A DNA stretch of 64,000 bases from a virus. The notes below the pieces were generated by a model, which was not told where the DNA came from, searched no databases, and saw nothing but the letters and a program-made list of their open reading frames with translations. Location of the stretch: positions 124,001-188,000 of the IMG/VR virus record IMGVR_UViG_3300027736_001324, one strand, 5' to 3'. This document shows positions 6,082 to 13,686 of this stretch, piece by piece. The stretch's first letter is position 1; the number at the start of each line of letters is the position of its first letter. The position numbers were made by a program, and so were the translations under genes.

Positions 6082-6264
6082 ATGATTACTACTCTTGCAC
6101 AATTCATCCAGCAATGTGAAGTGTCCACAAACTATGAGATTTACAAATTGTTTGAATTCAAAACTTCCGAAGAAGTTCGGAACGATGTTTATATGTGGGC
6201 CGATCCTAAGAGCCCGGAACCATTTCGTAGTGCTATGTACAATCTAGGGTTCACCGACTATTGA
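6082..6264 (+). CDS. Small early protein, unknown (60 aa)
   Basis: 60 residues, acidic and aromatic, with no membrane segment. The sequence reads as two short helices (LAQFIQQCEVSTNYEIYKLF and EEVRNDVYMWADP). It has its own promoter (copy 6) and AAAGGAA ribosome binding site, and its stop overlaps the -35 hexamer of copy 7. No family recognised. Confidence 0.7.
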   Translation: MITTLAQFIQQCEVSTNYEIYKLFEFKTSEEVRNDVYMWADPKSPEPFRSAMYNLGFTDY

Positions 6265-6289
6265 CAATAAATGGGTTTTAGTATATAAT
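6261..6289 (+). promoter_or_regulatory. Reiterated early promoter, copy 7
   Basis: TTGACA (6261-6266), 17-base spacer with ATAAATGG, TATAAT (6284-6289), then the shared CAGTTAACTAAAGGAA leader. Confidence 0.9.
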
Positions 6290-7376: not shown

Positions 7377-7402
7377 AGGGGAACAATTGTTCCCCTTTTT
7401 TT
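7377..7402 (+). terminator. Rho-independent terminator after the early island
   Basis: A perfect 20-base palindrome (stem AGGGGAAC, central AATT) is followed by seven T. It separates the early island from uvsW. Confidence 0.92.
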
Positions 7403-7453: not shown

Positions 7454-8941
7454 ATGAAACAATGTAAAATAATCGTCAGGGATGAAGTCAATGTAAAGAT
7501 TGAAGGTCTAGAATTGACTGAACGTAAATCCCTAGTAAAAATGTTTGAGTACGAAGTGCCCGGTGCAAGGTATCTTCCCGCGGTCCGTCTAGGTAGATGG
7601 AATGGTAAGGTTAGTTTCTTTAGTCTCGGTGGCAGTAGTTATGTCAATCTACTACCCGAAATACTACCCTTCATAGACAGCCGAGACTATGATATTGAAC
7701 TAGAGGACCTTCGTACATATAGTACAACATTCAATTTTGTTGAAGTGTCCGAGGATACGTTCAAACACAAGAATTGGCCCGAAGGTCATCCAATTGCAGG
7801 ACAACCAGTTGTATTGCGTGACTATCAAATATCAATCATTAATGAGTTTTTAAAGAATCCACAATCACTACAAGAAATTGCTACGGGAGCAGGTAAGACA
7901 TTAATCACAGCAGCATTGAGTTGGTCTATTGAAAGTTACGGACGCAGTATTGTTATCGTCCCAAACAAAAGTCTTGTAACACAAACCGAAGCAGATTACA
8001 TTAATCTAGGATTAGATGTTGGTGTGTACTTTGGTGATAGAAAAGAATACAATAAGACGCATACAATCTGTACATGGCAAAGCCTTAACAATATGCTTAA
8101 GAAAACAAAAGCAGGTGAAGCAGAAGTTGAGATTGGTGACTTCTTAGAAGGTGTAGTTTGTGTCATGGTAGATGAGGTTCACATGGCCAAAGCCGACGCA
8201 CTAAAAGAATTGCTTACTGGCGTAATGAGTAACATCCCAATTCGTTGGGGATTGACTGGAACTATACCTAAAGAAAAATTCGCAAGTCAAGCCATCTTTA
8301 TTAGTCTTGGCAATGTTATCAACAAATTATCTGCTAGCGAATTACAAGATAGAGGGGTATTGGCACAATGTCATGTAAACATTGTACAACTACAAGATGG
8401 TGTTGAGTTTAGTAATTACCAATCTGAACTAAAACATTTACTTGAAGATGATAAACGATTAAATAAAATTACTCAATTGGTCGATGTGATTAAGAATAGT
8501 GGCAACACATTGATATTAGTTGATAGAGTAGCAGCAGGTAAAGAACTACATAATAGGTTAGCCGAACTACTACGTAATTTTAAAACAGAATATGATGTTG
8601 TATTTGTATCAGGTAATACCGGTATGGATGAACGCAAAGAACAATATGATGAGGTTGCTACAGCAACTAACAAAATCATTATCGCTACATATGGTGTAGC
8701 AGCAGTTGGTATTAACATTCCCCGAATCTTTAATCTTGTTCTTATTGAACCGGGTAAGAGTTTTGTTCGGGTAATACAAAGTATCGGTCGTGGTATTCGT
8801 AAAGCTGAAGATAAGAACTTTGTTCAGATTTGGGATATCACAAGTAATTGTAAGTTTGCAAAACGGCATCTTACACAAAGAAAAGCATTTTATAAAGAAG
8901 CAAACTATCCATTTGATGTTGAAAAACTTACATATAAATGA
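7454..8941 (+). CDS. uvsW: UvsW DNA/RNA helicase
   Basis: 495-residue superfamily 2 helicase, matching T4 UvsW (503). An N-terminal domain of about 100 residues (GRWNGKVSFFS region) precedes motif I ATGAGKT at 143-149, motif II DEVH at 240-243, motif III-like GLTGT near 269 and motif VI QSIGRGIRK near 440. UvsW unwinds R-loops and branched DNA and drives fork regression, moving T4 from origin- to recombination-primed replication. A start without Shine-Dalgarno sits 11 bases from its promoter. Downstream genes continue toward clamp-loader functions. Confidence 0.93.
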   Translation: MKQCKIIVRDEVNVKIEGLELTERKSLVKMFEYEVPGARYLPAVRLGRWNGKVSFFSLGGSSYVNLLPEILPFIDSRDYDIELEDLRTYSTTFNFVEVSEDTFKHKNWPEGHPIAGQPVVLRDYQISIINEFLKNPQSLQEIATGAGKTLITAALSWSIESYGRSIVIVPNKSLVTQTEADYINLGLDVGVYFGDRKEYNKTHTICTWQSLNNMLKKTKAGEAEVEIGDFLEGVVCVMVDEVHMAKADALKELLTGVMSNIPIRWGLTGTIPKEKFASQAIFISLGNVINKLSASELQDRGVLAQCHVNIVQLQDGVEFSNYQSELKHLLEDDKRLNKITQLVDVIKNSGNTLILVDRVAAGKELHNRLAELLRNFKTEYDVVFVSGNTGMDERKEQYDEVATATNKIIIATYGVAAVGINIPRIFNLVLIEPGKSFVRVIQSIGRGIRKAEDKNFVQIWDITSNCKFAKRHLTQRKAFYKEANYPFDVEKLTYK

Positions 8942-8947
8942 TACAAT
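8919..8947 (+). promoter_or_regulatory. Leaderless sigma70-like promoter inside the end of uvsW
   Basis: TTGAAA (8919-8924), 17-base spacer, TACAAT (8942-8947), then only 6 bases to the ATG at 8954 with no Shine-Dalgarno. The promoter overlaps the last codons of uvsW. Confidence 0.6.
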
Positions 8948-8953
8948 AACACT

Positions 8954-9454
8954 ATGAGAATTTTGACCCTAGATAACGAATACTATAACTTAGAGACATT
9001 GCCAGAGGAGATAGATGATTTACGATTTGCAATATTGGACAACAGTAATCCAAGCAATGTAGATTATCATTATATACCATTAATCTTTTTAGAAAGTTTT
9101 AATGCCCCGGCACTTGTATTGAAGATTGGTAAACACACAATTAAAATGCCAGTGGATTGGCAAATATTGATTGGTGAAAAAGAGCATGGCGATTTAGAAA
9201 CATTGCCACTAACAAGTATCAATGATAGAGGATTTAATGCGTTTGAGTTTAATCCGTTAACTAGTTTTAGTCCTACCTTTCTACCTATTGAGATTGTAGA
9301 TATATACCACGATGTAACATGGTATGCTCCCCGATTAAAGAACGGGCAGTTTCTGTGTGTACCGTTGAATGATGGGCCTAAACCCGAATGTGTATATTTT
9401 GTAAAAGAAATTAGTCGTAACTGTGAGATAATAGATTATAGTCAGGCATTCTAA
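8954..9454 (+). CDS. Conserved T4-like hypothetical next to gp62
   Basis: 166 residues, beta-rich. A central block (KMPVDWQILIGE...GDLETLPLTSINDRGFNAFEFNPL) followed by a VPLNDGPKPECVYFVKEISR segment resembles, from memory, a widely conserved hypothetical of marine T4-like phages. No catalytic motif seen. Its stop overlaps the gp62-like start (TAATG), so they are translationally coupled. This suggests a role tied to replication or late transcription, which is inference. Confidence 0.75.
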   Translation: MRILTLDNEYYNLETLPEEIDDLRFAILDNSNPSNVDYHYIPLIFLESFNAPALVLKIGKHTIKMPVDWQILIGEKEHGDLETLPLTSINDRGFNAFEFNPLTSFSPTFLPIEIVDIYHDVTWYAPRLKNGQFLCVPLNDGPKPECVYFVKEISRNCEIIDYSQAF

Positions 9455-10047
9455 TGGCAACAAGAAAAGTAGCAGTACCCGTTGATGAAAAATTTGACAA
9501 ACAAGATTTAGACTTGTTTGAGGTCCTTGCCGCATTAGATAAGAAAGATTATGATTTCTTTGATAGACTATCACCCGAACAACAAAAAAAGTTTGTCCCG
9601 TTTACAATGATACAATGGCTAAGTGCTATTAAAGGTAGTGAGGGATTAAGTCGTTATTATGTAATGAGTACAGCAGAGTATGCGAACAAGTATCTGTTCA
9701 ATGAGAATATTCAAAAGCATCCTAAACTACAATGGTTGATGATGTGTGCTAGTAGCCCGGGCTCAGGTAAACAATTCCATCAGTGGATACCTAACATCAG
9801 CCCTAAGGTAAGTAAATTACAAGCAGCAGCTAAACTAAAAGATATTAAAGAGTATTACAAGAAGATATATCCTAGAGCAGATAGTGATGATATTGACGCA
9901 GTAAGTGAAGCGTTTGTAGTTAATCAAAAACGCAAACTTAAATTAGCAGAATTGTTTCCTAATATGAAACTAACAGACATTGAGACATTAAATGAAACTA
10001 TTACTGAAGAACAACTTAAGCAATATGAAAGAGACCTCGGCAATTAA
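9454..10047 (+). CDS. 62: Probable clamp-loader small subunit gp62
   Basis: 197 residues, close to T4 gp62 (187). The pattern resembles the phage clamp-loader A subunit: a short N-terminal helix (LDLFEVLAALDKKDYDFF), a PFTMIQWLSAIKG helix, an Asn/Tyr-rich middle (AEYANKYLFN), a KLQWLMMCASSPGSGKQFHQW segment corresponding to the basic-aromatic stretch, and a C-terminal helix pair (about 150-195). gp62 binds gp44 and opens clamp gp45. No gp44 or gp45 gene is in the window, so the call rests on pattern and the neighbouring replication genes. Confidence 0.55.
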   Translation: MATRKVAVPVDEKFDKQDLDLFEVLAALDKKDYDFFDRLSPEQQKKFVPFTMIQWLSAIKGSEGLSRYYVMSTAEYANKYLFNENIQKHPKLQWLMMCASSPGSGKQFHQWIPNISPKVSKLQAAAKLKDIKEYYKKIYPRADSDDIDAVSEAFVVNQKRKLKLAELFPNMKLTDIETLNETITEEQLKQYERDLGN

Positions 10048-10726
10048 GGCAGCAAAGTATGGCTGTGAATTTTGTAAGAGGGAGTTCTTGCGTGAATCAA
10101 CCACGCTTAGTCATGTATGTGAGCAGAAGCGTAGATGGTTAGATAAAGACAATCACGGCAATCGTATTGGGTTTCAATGTTGGTTGGAGTTTTATAAAAA
10201 GAATACATCAAAACGAAAGAATCTTAAGCAAGAAGATTTTATTAAGAATCCATATTACATTGCGTTTGTTAAGTTTGGTAATTATTGTGTCAACATCAAT
10301 GCGATAAATATTCCAAGATTTACTGATTGGTTATTAAAGAATCAAGTTAAGATTGACAATTGGTGTAGTGATAGTACATACACTAAATATCTAATTGAGT
10401 TTTTGAGACATGAAGATCCATTTGATGCTATACATCGTAGCATTGAAAAATGTATAGAAATGGCAAGTGACGCTAACATACAGCCACATGACTTATTGAG
10501 ATATGGCAATGCAAATAAGATTTGTTATGCGATAACAACGGGTAAGATTAGTCCATGGTTGTTGTATCAAAGCGACAGCGGGGTCCATTTCTTAGATGGA
10601 TTAAATGAAGGCCATGTTAAAATGATCATTGATTATATAAATCCAGAACAGTGGGCAATAAGGTTTAAACGTGATGCAGAACTTACGAAACGAATTAAAG
10701 ACACCCTCGGTGAAGCAGGGTACTAG
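10028..10726 (+). CDS. Zinc-finger hypothetical protein
   Basis: 232 residues from the ATG at 10028; the frame is open to 9992 but that would lie deeper inside gp62. The N-terminus carries a small zinc-finger-like motif, C-x2-C at residues 13-16 and H-x-C near 28-30 (CEFCKREF...LSHVC), followed by a basic patch (EQKRRWLDKDNHGNRIG). The rest is helical, with aromatic blocks (FIKNPYYIAFVKFGNYC) and no recognised domain. Overlap of 20 bases with gp62 indicates coupling. A DNA- or protein-binding helper of the replisome is plausible but unproven. Confidence 0.7.
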   Translation, partial: KETSAIKAAKYGCEFCKREFLRESTTLSHVCEQKRRWLDKDNHGNRIGFQCWLEFYKKNTSKRKNLKQEDFIKNPYYIAFVKFGNYCVNINAINIPRFTDWLLKNQVKIDNWCSDSTYTKYLIEFLRHEDPFDAIHRSIEKCIEMASDANIQPHDLLRYGNANKICYAITTGKISPWLLYQSDSGVHFLDGLNEGHVKMIIDYINPEQWAIRFKRDAELTKRIKDTLGEAGY

Positions 10727-10907
10727 GGTTCGTATCCCTTGGATGAAAGGTGATACAATTAGTGATTGGGATGAAACTTGTATTTGGGCAATGGAACAAT
10801 TTGATTTGCCGGGTGGGAAGTTTTACACACACATGACAGAAGATTATATGGATTTTGTATTTAAAGATGAGCGTGATGCGATACATTTTAGTTTAAGATG
10901 GTTATGA
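10674..10907 (+). CDS. Small LRW-tail paralogue A
   Basis: 77 residues if started at 10674 (an AAGG lies upstream); a later ATG at 10743 would give 54. The longer form keeps a beta-Trp-helix start (RVRIPWMKG) shared with siblings. The C-terminus reads FVFKDERDAIHFSLRWL, matching the family signature F-x-x-x-x-D-A-x-x-F-x-L-R-W. Overlaps the zinc-finger gene by 53 bases. First member of the tandem array that runs to 13138. Function unknown. Confidence 0.65.
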   Translation: MQNLRNELKTPSVKQGTRVRIPWMKGDTISDWDETCIWAMEQFDLPGGKFYTHMTEDYMDFVFKDERDAIHFSLRWL

Positions 10908-11119
10908 GAAGATGGGAAGATATACGACCGGGTTGGCATGAACGTGTTATTAAACTAGATGAAAACCGCCGGCAACTGCATCGTATTGAAATAATAGATT
11001 GGGTATGTAATAAAATTGAAAATTATGAAAGGCACACATTGTGCACCTGGGATGAATTTGAAGTAAGAATAAAATTTAGATATGAACGAGACTACATTTT
11101 TTGTAGTTTAAGATGGTAA
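10904..11119 (+). CDS. Small LRW-tail paralogue B
   Basis: 71 residues, ATGA overlap with paralogue A. Contains a Trp-rich N-terminal part (MRRWEDIRPGWHERVIKL), a helix ending in WVCNKIENYE, and the family tail RYERDYIFCSLRW. The tail codons AGA-TGG-TAA include the ATG of the next gene in another frame. Function unknown. Confidence 0.7.
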   Translation: MRRWEDIRPGWHERVIKLDENRRQLHRIEIIDWVCNKIENYERHTLCTWDEFEVRIKFRYERDYIFCSLRW

Positions 11120-11361
11120 CAAAAACAAAACAAGTAACTTATAAATATGTGGCCAGATTATGGGGCGCAGACTATGCCGCCCTGTTAATTTGGCTACAAA
11201 AAAATATAGGCAAATTAGTTGCCGCTAAGCCTATTGTTGCCTGGGAAGGACAAGGTTGGTATATGATATTAGTACAAGGCAACCATGGAGACCCTTATTG
11301 TGATATACATTTTGTAAATAAGAAACATTTAAAACTTTTGGAAAAAGACTGGGTTGAATGA
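11113..11361 (+). CDS. Small array protein C (divergent)
   Basis: 82 residues, beginning inside the last codons of paralogue B (7-base overlap). The helix-strand layout and Trp content match the array (LIWLQKNIGKL, WEGQGWYMILVQG), but the C-terminus (FVNKKHLKLLEKDWVE) lacks the L-R-W signature. It is either a diverged member or an unrelated insertion. Function unknown. Confidence 0.65.
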   Translation: MVTKTKQVTYKYVARLWGADYAALLIWLQKNIGKLVAAKPIVAWEGQGWYMILVQGNHGDPYCDIHFVNKKHLKLLEKDWVE

Positions 11362-11660
11362 TAAAGAAACGTGCCATGGCTAACAATAGATGGGTATCTG
11401 ATTTAGCAAATCAATGGATAGATGAAATCAACGTGAAACGCCTTGAAACTGGTTATGCTGACAATCAACCTAAATGGCCCTACTGGGTTCGTCCACACAA
11501 CTACGAGGAGAAAGAGTGGTATGACATGGACAAATGGCTGCTAAACATAATGGGTGATAATAATTGGCATAAAGAAAACGCACGTTGGGTAGGCAGCAAT
11601 CGTAAGTATTGGTTCCGTGATGAAGCAGATAGAACCTTTTTCATATTGAGATGGTCATGA
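11358..11660 (+). CDS. Small LRW-tail paralogue D
   Basis: 100 residues, the longest member, ATGA overlap with C. Unusually rich in Trp (about 12). The middle resembles siblings (YWVRPHNYEEKEWYDMDKWL) and the C-terminus is YWFRDEADRTFFILRWS. The coding sequence of LRWS (TTG-AGA-TGG-TCA-TGA) carries the next gene's start codon. Function unknown. Confidence 0.72.
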   Translation: MIKKRAMANNRWVSDLANQWIDEINVKRLETGYADNQPKWPYWVRPHNYEEKEWYDMDKWLLNIMGDNNWHKENARWVGSNRKYWFRDEADRTFFILRWS

Positions 11661-11899
11661 ACAGCAAACAGCGTAGAAAAGAAAAACGTGATATTGATAA
11701 GAATTATCACAAGGTACATCTTACAGTACGCCCAGGAATGAATTGGACTGATTGGTGTGATCAAGTTGCGGAAATGGTTAGGTGGGTTAGTGAACATACT
11801 AGGCGTGATTGTTGTTTGCAAAAAAATGAGTGGGCTGGTAGTACATTCTATTTCGTAGACGCAAAAGATGCTACACATTTTATATTGAGATGGTCATGA
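11657..11899 (+). CDS. Small LRW-tail paralogue E
   Basis: 80 residues from the ATGA overlap at 11657. N-terminus strongly basic (NSKQRRKEKRDIDKNYH), then HLTVRPGMNWTDWCDQVAEMVRWV and the tail FVDAKDATHFILRWS, an exact fit to the family signature. The basic head is absent from other members, so paralogues differ mainly at their N-termini. Function unknown. Confidence 0.72.
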   Translation: MNSKQRRKEKRDIDKNYHKVHLTVRPGMNWTDWCDQVAEMVRWVSEHTRRDCCLQKNEWAGSTFYFVDAKDATHFILRWS

Positions 11900-12156
11900 T
11901 AGATATAGAACACGAATACATTGACAAACTTGCTAAAGATATGGCTGACAGCATTGATACAGAAGTATTGTATAATGCTATGGGTTGGACTGTTGTTAAC
12001 ATACCGCATCCATGGTACATTCCTAGTGTGCGTAATAGTGTAACAGATTGGTTAGAAGAAAATAAAATTGAATATCATGAATATCATTGTTGGGACGGCA
12101 GAATTGCTTTCAAAGAAGGTAGTGATGCTACATTTTTCATATTGAGGTGGTCATGA
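11896..12156 (+). CDS. Small LRW-tail paralogue F
   Basis: 86 residues, ATGA overlap. N-terminus is acidic (MIDIEHEYIDKLAKDMADS) in contrast to its basic neighbour E; then VVNIPHPWYIP, a helix VTDWLEENK, and the tail AFKEGSDATFFILRWS. Function unknown. Confidence 0.72.
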   Translation: MIDIEHEYIDKLAKDMADSIDTEVLYNAMGWTVVNIPHPWYIPSVRNSVTDWLEENKIEYHEYHCWDGRIAFKEGSDATFFILRWS

Positions 12157-12398
12157 GTAAATTTACACACAAAACAGAACGCTATTTTGGTAGCAAAGTT
12201 AATATACATACTATCTCTTGGAAGAACCAAGATGATGTTGACCCTAAAGAAATCAAGAAATGGTGTAAAAAGAATTACGGCAATTCAGGGTATGATGATG
12301 AAACTGGAAGTAATCGTTGGGTAGATAATATTAAGCAATGTGAGATAATGCTTACCCGTGACGAAGATTTAACATTGTTTTTATTGCGCTGGGAATGA
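12153..12398 (+). CDS. Small LRW-tail paralogue G
   Basis: 81 residues, ATGA overlap. Layout VNIHTISWKNQDD, helix PKEIKKWCKKNYG, RWVDNIKQCEIMLTRDEDLTLFLLRWE tail in register with siblings. Function unknown. Confidence 0.72.
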   Translation: MSKFTHKTERYFGSKVNIHTISWKNQDDVDPKEIKKWCKKNYGNSGYDDETGSNRWVDNIKQCEIMLTRDEDLTLFLLRWE

Positions 12399-12598
12399 AA
12401 TCTGTAACCATCTACGGCAAAAGTGCGAATGAAGTAATAGAAATATTACATCAAATGCAAGCACACGGCTGGACTGATGGAGTAGATTTTGATTGGGCAT
12501 ATCATCGTTCTTCCACATATGATACAAGAGATCGCCGAGCAGTGTTTAATTTCTACAAAGAAGAATACAGTACTTACTTTGCATTGAGATGGGTATGA
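12395..12598 (+). CDS. Small LRW-tail paralogue H
   Basis: 67 residues, the shortest clear member and close to a minimal domain: strand (KSVTIYGK), helix (SANEVIEILHQMQAHG), polar turn and the tail FNFYKEEYSTYFALRWV. Coupled by ATGA to both neighbours. Function unknown. Confidence 0.7.
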   Translation: MKSVTIYGKSANEVIEILHQMQAHGWTDGVDFDWAYHRSSTYDTRDRRAVFNFYKEEYSTYFALRWV

Positions 12599-12864
12599 CC
12601 AATATATCAAAATCATTTCAAGATTATGATGACGATGATCCGGCATTACATCAACGAAAGAATCGTTGGAAGTATTGGGAAGCATTGAAAAAAGTTCGTG
12701 TAGAGTACATGGAAAACAAAACTGATTTTGACGCATATGATTTTGAAGATTATCTACAAAAGAAGTACGGTGTAAGAATGAATATTACCAATGGCAATAT
12801 AACAGATGGTTATCAGATAGTAGATGAAAAACTCTATTTAATATTTTTATTAAAATGGGGATGA
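12595..12864 (+). CDS. Small LRW-tail paralogue I
   Basis: 89 residues from the overlapping ATG. N-terminal half is charged and helical (DDDDPALHQRKNRWKYWEALKKV), then a Phe/Asp helix, and a tail IVDEKLYLIFLLKWG in which Arg is replaced by Lys. Function unknown. Confidence 0.7.
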   Translation: MTNISKSFQDYDDDDPALHQRKNRWKYWEALKKVRVEYMENKTDFDAYDFEDYLQKKYGVRMNITNGNITDGYQIVDEKLYLIFLLKWG

Positions 12865-12865
12865 T

Positions 12866-13138
12866 ATGGCAATAAAATACACAGAATGTTTCCATCCAGC
12901 ATATCCCAATGCCTCAGGCTCTTTATGTAAGGATAACAAATATAAAGCAGGACACAAAACAGTCTATCAAAGAGATTGTAGATATCATAAAGAGGATCCA
13001 TCTATCATTGTAAAATGGATGAGAAGAAATTTTGGTGAAAGACACCAAGGTTGGGACTTCTCTTTAGCTGGAGGATGTGTTACAATAGAGTTGTGGGATG
13101 ATAGATTTATAACAATGTATGAAATGTGGCAGATGTAA
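12866..13138 (+). CDS. Small array protein J (divergent tail)
   Basis: 90 residues starting 2 bases after paralogue I. It has cysteines (positions 8, 21, 37, 71) not seen in siblings and a C-terminal strand-helix ending MYEMWQM that aligns only loosely with the F-x-L-R-W tail. The WMRRNFGERHQGW helix resembles those of D and G. Its stop overlaps the exonuclease start (TAATG). Probably the last, most divergent array member. Confidence 0.65.
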   Translation: MAIKYTECFHPAYPNASGSLCKDNKYKAGHKTVYQRDCRYHKEDPSIIVKWMRRNFGERHQGWDFSLAGGCVTIELWDDRFITMYEMWQM

Positions 13139-13686
13139 TGGCAAATGATATAATGATTGATTTGGAGACACTTGACACAAGTCCATATTGTGTTATATTA
13201 ACTATAGGAGCTGTGCGGTTTGATCCTAAGGGTAATGGTGTAGTAGAACGATTAGAATTGCGTCCTACGATTGAAGAACAGACAGAAAAATATGATAGGA
13301 TAATTGATGACAGTACAATTGAATGGTGGGCAAAACAAAGCCCTGCCGCACTTGAAGAAGCGATGGGAGATGAAGGACGTGTTTCATTTAGTGAATGTAT
13401 GGAAACCCTTTATAAGTTTTGTTGGAATCGCCGTGCTGTGTGGTCTAATGGGGCTGCATTTGATATCGTTGCTTGCGAGACCGCATGGAGGCAACTTGGA
13501 GTGCGAATACCGTGGCCATTCTATACCGTACGAGATACTAGAACGTTGTATGAAGTTGCAGGAGTCAAACTAAGTGATGGCGGACATTCTACTAGTCACA
13601 AAGCAGTAGAAGATGCCGAAAGACAAGCAATTGTTGTACAAAAAGCGTATACTAAACTAATTAAAGCAGGAGTAATGGCACCATGA
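13138..13686 (+). CDS. dexA: DexA-like DEDDh 3'-5' exonuclease
   Basis: 182 residues from the ATG at 13138, which overlaps the preceding stop. Exo I motif D8-x-E10 (MIDLETLD), an STIEWWAKQSP block also present in T4 DexA, Exo II-like SNGAAFDIVACE and Exo III HKAVEDAERQA (His and Asp spaced as in DEDDh nucleases). T4 DexA (227 residues) degrades single-stranded DNA from the 3' end; related proteins act on RNA. Being in the small-protein operon it may process DNA or RNA during takeover. Family call is firm, substrate is inferred. Confidence 0.82.
   Translation: MANDIMIDLETLDTSPYCVILTIGAVRFDPKGNGVVERLELRPTIEEQTEKYDRIIDDSTIEWWAKQSPAALEEAMGDEGRVSFSECMETLYKFCWNRRAVWSNGAAFDIVACETAWRQLGVRIPWPFYTVRDTRTLYEVAGVKLSDGGHSTSHKAVEDAERQAIVVQKAYTKLIKAGVMAP

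Follow-up and report, generated by a model that had tools for sequence, protein, structure and literature searches.

The window analysed here, 64,000 nucleotides that correspond to bases 124001-188000 of the 263,709-base IMG/VR virus record IMGVR_UViG_3300027736_001324, contains a tandem array of 10 consecutive, co-directional small open reading frames (ORFs) on the + strand, at 10671/10674-13138. Eight of these genes (A, B, D, E, F, G, H and I) encode proteins with the C-terminal pattern F-x(4)-[DE]-x(3)-F-x-L-[RK]-W, and their last residues read F/C-x-L-R/K-W. An earlier note on this DNA had described an array of about ten small paralogues, and the array is real, with the same slot filled likewise in related viruses; the tail that the note described is also shared by the eight genes, except that the D-A pair it placed ahead of the last F is confined to A, E and F. 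The array is not a chance arrangement, since its slot recurs in 80 related viral contigs, where the same flanking genes enclose the same kind of genes, since the ratio of nonsynonymous to synonymous differences (pN/pS) is below 1, and since matches to the family profile in this genome are confined to the array. The 80 loci (L020-L099) were retrieved with a 197-residue neighbour protein (9454-10047), and the array counts given below rest on the 42 loci, window included, in which the slot between both flanking genes is complete.

The variable slot is bordered on the left by a conserved 244-residue protein (9992-10726, + strand; PHROG 11058) and on the right by a conserved DnaQ/Rv2179c-like 3'-5' exonuclease (13126-13686, + strand). 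Paralogue A (77 residues; 10674-10907, starting at ATG 10674 or GTG 10671) shares about 50 bases with the end of the left border gene and is present in 37 of the 42 complete arrays. It is followed by B (71 residues; 10904-11119), which starts in an ATGA overlap with A and is found in all 42, and by C (11113-11361), which has its own ATG within the R-W codons of B and the divergent tail KDW. Next are D (100 residues, 10% Trp; 11358-11660; 28/42), the basic E (11657-11899), which has profile-profile links to A and D, and the acidic, accessory F (11896-12156; 7/42). The row closes with the slowly evolving core members G (12153-12398; 35/42) and I (12595-12864; tail FLLKW; 40/42), which enclose H (67 residues; 12395-12598; 32/42), and with J (12866-13138; 31/42), for which a fold was predicted and which ends in YEMW, without LRW. 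For most of these genes, the likely start is the ATG within the four-base ATGA overlap, which lies a few codons past the start of the longest ORF. Several of the ORF starts listed earlier are too early, and the likely ones are 10904 for B, 11657 for E, 11896 for F, 12153 for G and 12595 for I. N-termini resembling 'MVYIEVVM' were rejected as real protein, as they are the upstream tail translated out of frame.

As computed from the sequences, the tail appears to be written in two codes: the codons for L-R-W double as a Shine-Dalgarno-like stretch, and the stop shares 4 nt with the next start. Among 219 distinct tails, 154 have a stop that shares 1 or 4 nt with the next start, which lies exactly 4 nt back from the stop in 135 and at -1 in 19. 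In the consensus, TTGAGGTGGTCATGA, GAGG lies about five bases ahead of the ATG. Codon choice follows the same line: Arg is AGG in 71 of 138 cases (51%) in coupled tails versus 67 of 936 (7%) in the interior of these genes (Fisher p 2.5e-34), and large phage genes use AGG for 6% of Arg; Leu is TTG in 127 of 201 cases versus 23% in large phage genes. The computed duplex with the anti-Shine-Dalgarno sequence is -5.2 kcal/mol, versus -2.9 after synonymous recoding, and is the stronger of the two in 139 of 172 tails. Further, the gene ends form direct repeats of 44-49 nt, all on the + strand. The repeat at the end of A (10859-10907; direct-repeat family D1) comprises the codons of beta3 and alpha2, the Shine-Dalgarno-like stretch and the start of B; those at the ends of D (11612-11660), E (11851-11899) and F (12108-12156, containing TTGAGGTGGTCATGA) carry the ribosome-binding site and start of E, F and G, respectively, and that of H (12550-12598) carries the start of I.

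The amino acids of the tail are, judged from substitution patterns, also under selection at the protein level, because pN/pS is low in the tails and FxL[RK]W also survives between genes that lack an overlap. Specifically, pN/pS is 0.11-0.40 in the tails of tail-bearing groups (last 20 codons minus last three), and where the next gene starts 0-15 bases past the stop, 18 of 21 tails retain R/K and 18 of 21 retain W. In these non-overlapping tails, the Arg codons are spread over AGA, CGA, AGG and CGC, with AGG in 3 of 12, and AGR codons account for 7 of 12, compared with 120 of 138 in coupled tails (p 0.02). Among group A orthologues, V19, W32, G47, F63, A69, F72 and L74 are invariant and mainly of core type, while R75 and W76 vary (LSCL, LCCG, LTCG). 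Hence the constraint on the protein falls on the hydrophobic helix positions, and the R-W codons are those shared with the signal of the next gene. Outside the tail, the bodies change at several times the rate of most flanking genes. Using Nei-Gojobori counts pooled over non-independent pairs, which make these ratios a guide only, pN/pS across orthologues is 0.44-0.54 for A, B, D, E, F, H and J, 0.31 for C, 0.18 for G and 0.19 for I, compared with 0.11, 0.14 and 0.21 for three flanking genes. Internal frameshifts are few in nature (groups 57 and 97).

By tail or by link, the family comprises about 65 groups, and computation shows the tail-bearing groups, as judged from their profiles, to share a common ancestry. 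Comparisons of hidden Markov model (HMM) profiles gave probabilities of >90% for A-E, 91% for A-B, 93% for D-E, 93% for D-F and 88% for D-G; the A-B, A-E, D-E and D-G alignments cover about 60 columns, although most of the between-group signal lies in the last 20 residues. The last L and last W (L74 and W76) are each present in at least 90% of 81 diverse members, and so is the W of helix 1, such that conservation extends past the last five residues; its absence there would, by the earlier note, have refuted the reading. C and J, named there as divergent members, belong to the family as well: C has a 99% link to group 9, the members of which end in FGLVW, and J connects with G by way of helix 1 (helix-level HMM match of 69-76%) and with A by fold. 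The protein encoded at 13683, which had been offered as a possible distant member, is not supported (hhalign at most 2.2% against ten groups, and a marginal HMM score at best). Elsewhere in the genome, an 85-residue ORF upstream of the window (genome positions 114905-115162) ends in FLKSKDYVFWSLKYK and, with a marginal HMM score, is a possible isolated distant member. The pattern TTTNNNYTNMGNTGG also matches seven repeats at 94.9-98.8 kb of the genome, which differ from the array family. These seven TTTGATTTTAGTTGG matches (genome positions 94958-98785; L001-L007) are identical or near-identical, several lie about 400 bases apart, and they suggest a long repetitive gene separate from the array family.

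AlphaFold2 predicted a beta-alpha-beta-beta-alpha fold (E-H-E-E-H) for A, with a predicted local distance difference test (pLDDT) score of 78 and a predicted template modelling (pTM) score of 0.66, and a beta-beta-alpha-beta-beta-alpha fold (E-E-H-E-E-H) for J (pLDDT 76, pTM 0.61). The J model thus has the same core as A plus one extra N-terminal strand, and the structural comparison proposed earlier, run for these two proteins, points to a common core even though J looks the farthest removed. In the A model, the tail is the C-terminal helix, residues 66-76. The two models have in common the viral Foldseek neighbours A0A6J5NXQ2, A0A6J5KY55, A0A6J5LU99 and A0A6J5LHB1, all predicted proteins of uncultured phages. 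A structure search of the PDB returned generic matches only (ferredoxin-like, ACT, RRM and designed proteins; Z about 6), with no Foldseek E <0.24, and these matches were not taken as a clue to function. Both models stop at the second helix, without a fourth strand in the canonical place, and so do not form a canonical ferredoxin-like fold. The family is rich in Trp, at 5.9% versus 1.0% in large phage proteins, and isoelectric points (pI) range from 4.1 to 9.9 over the approximately 65 groups, of which 26 are acidic.

Copy number varies widely between relatives, as a comparison proposed in the earlier note bore out. Complete slots span about 1.2 to 7.4 kb and hold 5 to 30 genes in 34 different orders (n = 42), with a near-constant core (A, B, G, H, I, J and D) and a remainder of accessory genes, many of which were found once. 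A search of phages with the family profile (A4), likewise suggested earlier, gave 9 matches in this genome, all within the array, 36 in a 364-kb relative with two arrays, 31 in the isolated Sinorhizobium phage Phosso, dispersed through its genome, 5 in Atu_ph07, 3 in PA5oct and none in XacN1. The second array of the 364-kb relative lies at another locus (L109:834-4825; G002:200333-204324, minus strand). The Phosso proteins read ...WC..N.G...W...F.F....DAMLFKLTWS, a pattern by which they clearly belong to the array family. Isolated relatives retain the neighbourhood: in Phosso, a single tail-bearing gene directly precedes a DnaE-like gene, and in PA5oct no tail-bearing gene was found at the equivalent site. 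Searches of phage records with single sequences (tblastn) gave few matches because the family is too divergent.

Other genes are interspersed in some of these slots. In one relative, four tandem small genes (groups 53-56; L022:13302-14392) with the motif FAELIV-EC ... HFGVEE lie inside the array, between F/g12 and g15, and are apparently a second, unrelated small paralogue family. Radical S-adenosylmethionine (SAM) proteins, one with a weak B12-binding match, and a PhyH-type oxygenase are inserted among the small genes of others (L079:4747-6650, L091:5215-6444, L092:6043-10841 and L088:4067-5389), and it is conceivable that they are linked to modification of the Trp-rich small proteins. Endonuclease VII-like (HNH-type) genes are present at the right edge of several arrays (L068:3685-4116 and L091:9501-9902) and are possibly a mobile element able to drive array turnover. 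As for the surroundings of the array, the left border protein has an N-terminal C2H2-like zinc-finger pattern (CEFCKREF...LSHVC) that is kept in Phosso, Atu_ph07, PA5oct and XacN1. A 203-residue protein (13997-14608) is annotated as a DnaE-like DNA polymerase III alpha in isolated relatives (PHROG 11778, 'DNA polymerase') and is far too short for a polymerase; Phosso has two such DnaE-like genes, each directly behind tail-bearing small genes. From 7454 to 14608, the main genes are all on the + strand, and no strong + strand terminator was found in this span. Upstream, a perfect sigma-70 consensus promoter (6261-6289) lies ahead of the 6324 gene, and a strong intrinsic terminator (7377-7396) lies behind it.

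We consider it about an even chance (roughly 0.5) that the array represents a small, non-enzymatic scaffold for binding, maintained as interchangeable cassettes with coupled translation, and this undescribed, fast-evolving family of a freshwater giant phage probably binds different host or phage partners. In this model, each gene would encode a small domain of about 60-100 residues with beta-alpha-beta-beta-alpha order and without recognisable catalytic residues, in which the C-terminal amphipathic helix (DAxxFxLRW) would pack on the sheet. Ribosomes would move along a long message from the replication region by termination-reinitiation, one cassette after another, and the dual-coded boundary would allow cassettes to be gained or lost with translation of the row intact. 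Each product would be a small and stable domain in which the sheet and the C-terminal helix form a back that stays constant while the rest varies, and its simplest role would be that of a binding protein. Near-constant core members probably bind partners common to all of these phages or their hosts, and the variable accessory members probably bind lineage-specific host or defence targets, with counter-defence being the obvious candidate. The wider proposal, that the family is an undescribed superfamily forming a modular repertoire of binders, with tail codons that supply the next ribosome-binding site and start and with cassettes swapped in a row of 5-30 genes against changing host targets, is more tentative. 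That a scaffold is kept while the remainder diversifies, as the earlier note had it, is supported by the common predicted core of A and J, the fast-evolving bodies and the turnover of content, but conservation of the tail is partly explained by the embedded ribosome-binding site and start overlap, a feature that the earlier note did not bring up.

Several results weigh against this binding-scaffold reading. In no orthologue group does pN/pS exceed 1, and with an average below 1, positive selection is not shown; together with a core kept in most relatives, this is not a pure arms-race pattern. Once the last 20 residues are cut, nearly all links between groups vanish, and within the window only the G-J helix match is strong, so common ancestry of the whole proteins rests on the tail, the helix and two predicted folds of moderate confidence. 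Further, across 192 junctions, the identity of the downstream gene does not predict the tail R and L codons (the observed value is reached by 260 and 295 of 300 shuffles, respectively) but only the two free bases before ATGA (0 of 300). Where D and then F are neighbours, CGT replaces AGA/AGG in all three contigs, a weak hint of cassette swapping inside the tail; given the result for the R and L codons, recombination at the tail is not demonstrated, and the hint stays weak.

The main and serious rival is that the paralogues assemble with one another into a single hetero-oligomeric phage complex, such as an accessory ring for the replisome or for recombination, and are co-translated so that its stoichiometry is fixed. 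It is serious because gene overlaps are enriched for complex subunits and because the core set is fixed, with A, B, G, H, I, J and D retained by most relatives, and the array also sits among replication and recombination genes. However, gene number ranges from 5 to 30 and order changes, the relatives in Phosso are dispersed over its genome, and accessory groups are often confined to a single relative. One complex is a distinctly weaker, if credible, explanation.

Less probable still is that the proteins are small nucleic-acid binders of RRM or ferredoxin-like type, such as mRNA regulators or DNA-coating proteins. A weak fold resemblance to these domains, the Trp-rich sequences and the location in a DNA-metabolism operon would fit such a role, but the structural matches are all generic, and no conserved basic or RNP-like (ribonucleoprotein-like) motif was seen; a pI of 4.1-9.9, with 26 of 65 groups acidic, combined with the Trp-rich composition, speaks against a single, uniform nucleic-acid-binding role and for diverse surfaces. 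The least likely alternative is that the tail is conserved only as DNA, as an embedded ribosome-binding site and recombination repeat, in otherwise dispensable, expanding cassettes. Although the strong codon bias to TTGAGGTGG and xxATGA at the tail and the direct repeats at gene ends are what it would predict, tail pN/pS is low while synonymous sites vary, the preference for AGG fades without overlap while FxL[RK]W survives, Phosso members retain FKLxW, and the F/D/A/F positions lie too far upstream to serve a ribosome-binding site. A purely DNA-level signal is rejected for the tail, as the amino acids persist without overlap.

None of the ten window proteins matched Pfam above its curated cut-off, and 81 diverse members gave isolated weak matches only (best E 0.0029 in Pfam and 0.01 in PHROGs). 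No convincing match was obtained in PADLOC, the models of which cover defence and not counter-defence, or in sequence searches of the PDB. A literature search of open-access text found no description of the family; nor did keyword searches show any mention of it in an AP-J-162 genome paper or in two jumbo-phage surveys, one of which (PMC7824862) was searched for paralogues and expansions. The novelty lies in finding together a domain not described before, a coupled array of changing content and a conserved tail that is coded twice. Some of the small-gene dark matter in giant phages is thereby given a nameable family and a profile, and the copies in the cultured phages Phosso, Agrobacterium phage Atu_ph07, Pseudomonas phage PA5oct and relatives make its function testable. 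The tail is also a clear case of one protein motif shaped by two codes, and it warns against a purely protein-level reading of conserved terminal motifs. If the binder reading is true, each array would be a ready-made library of binders of host factors or defences.

Anti-CRISPR-type loci are arrays of small, diversified phage proteins directed against host defences, and the array resembles them in its small, fast-turnover, co-directional genes of non-enzymatic look, but it differs in its conserved core set and has no sequence match to any named inhibitor family. With ferredoxin-like and RRM-like small domains, it shares the beta-alpha-beta-beta-alpha order and structural matches at Z about 6, yet its models lack the fourth strand, and no sequence relationship to these domains was found. 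Overlapping, coupled genes are common, and what sets the array apart from known coupled pairs is that many consecutive paralogues encode the signal with the same conserved amino acids. Termination-reinitiation at ATGA overlaps is established in other systems (PMC10666635), and gene pairs of this kind (PMC6728339 and PMC10666635) are alike in having a 4-nt overlap and a Shine-Dalgarno-like stretch in the upstream gene. Lineage-specific expansion of one small domain is also known in jumbo phages, with about 35 zinc-ribbon copies in Bacillus phage G (PMC7824862). The likeness is one of many diverged copies of a single small domain in a giant phage genome, whereas the array domain is without zinc ligands and stands in one translationally coupled row with dual-coded tails.

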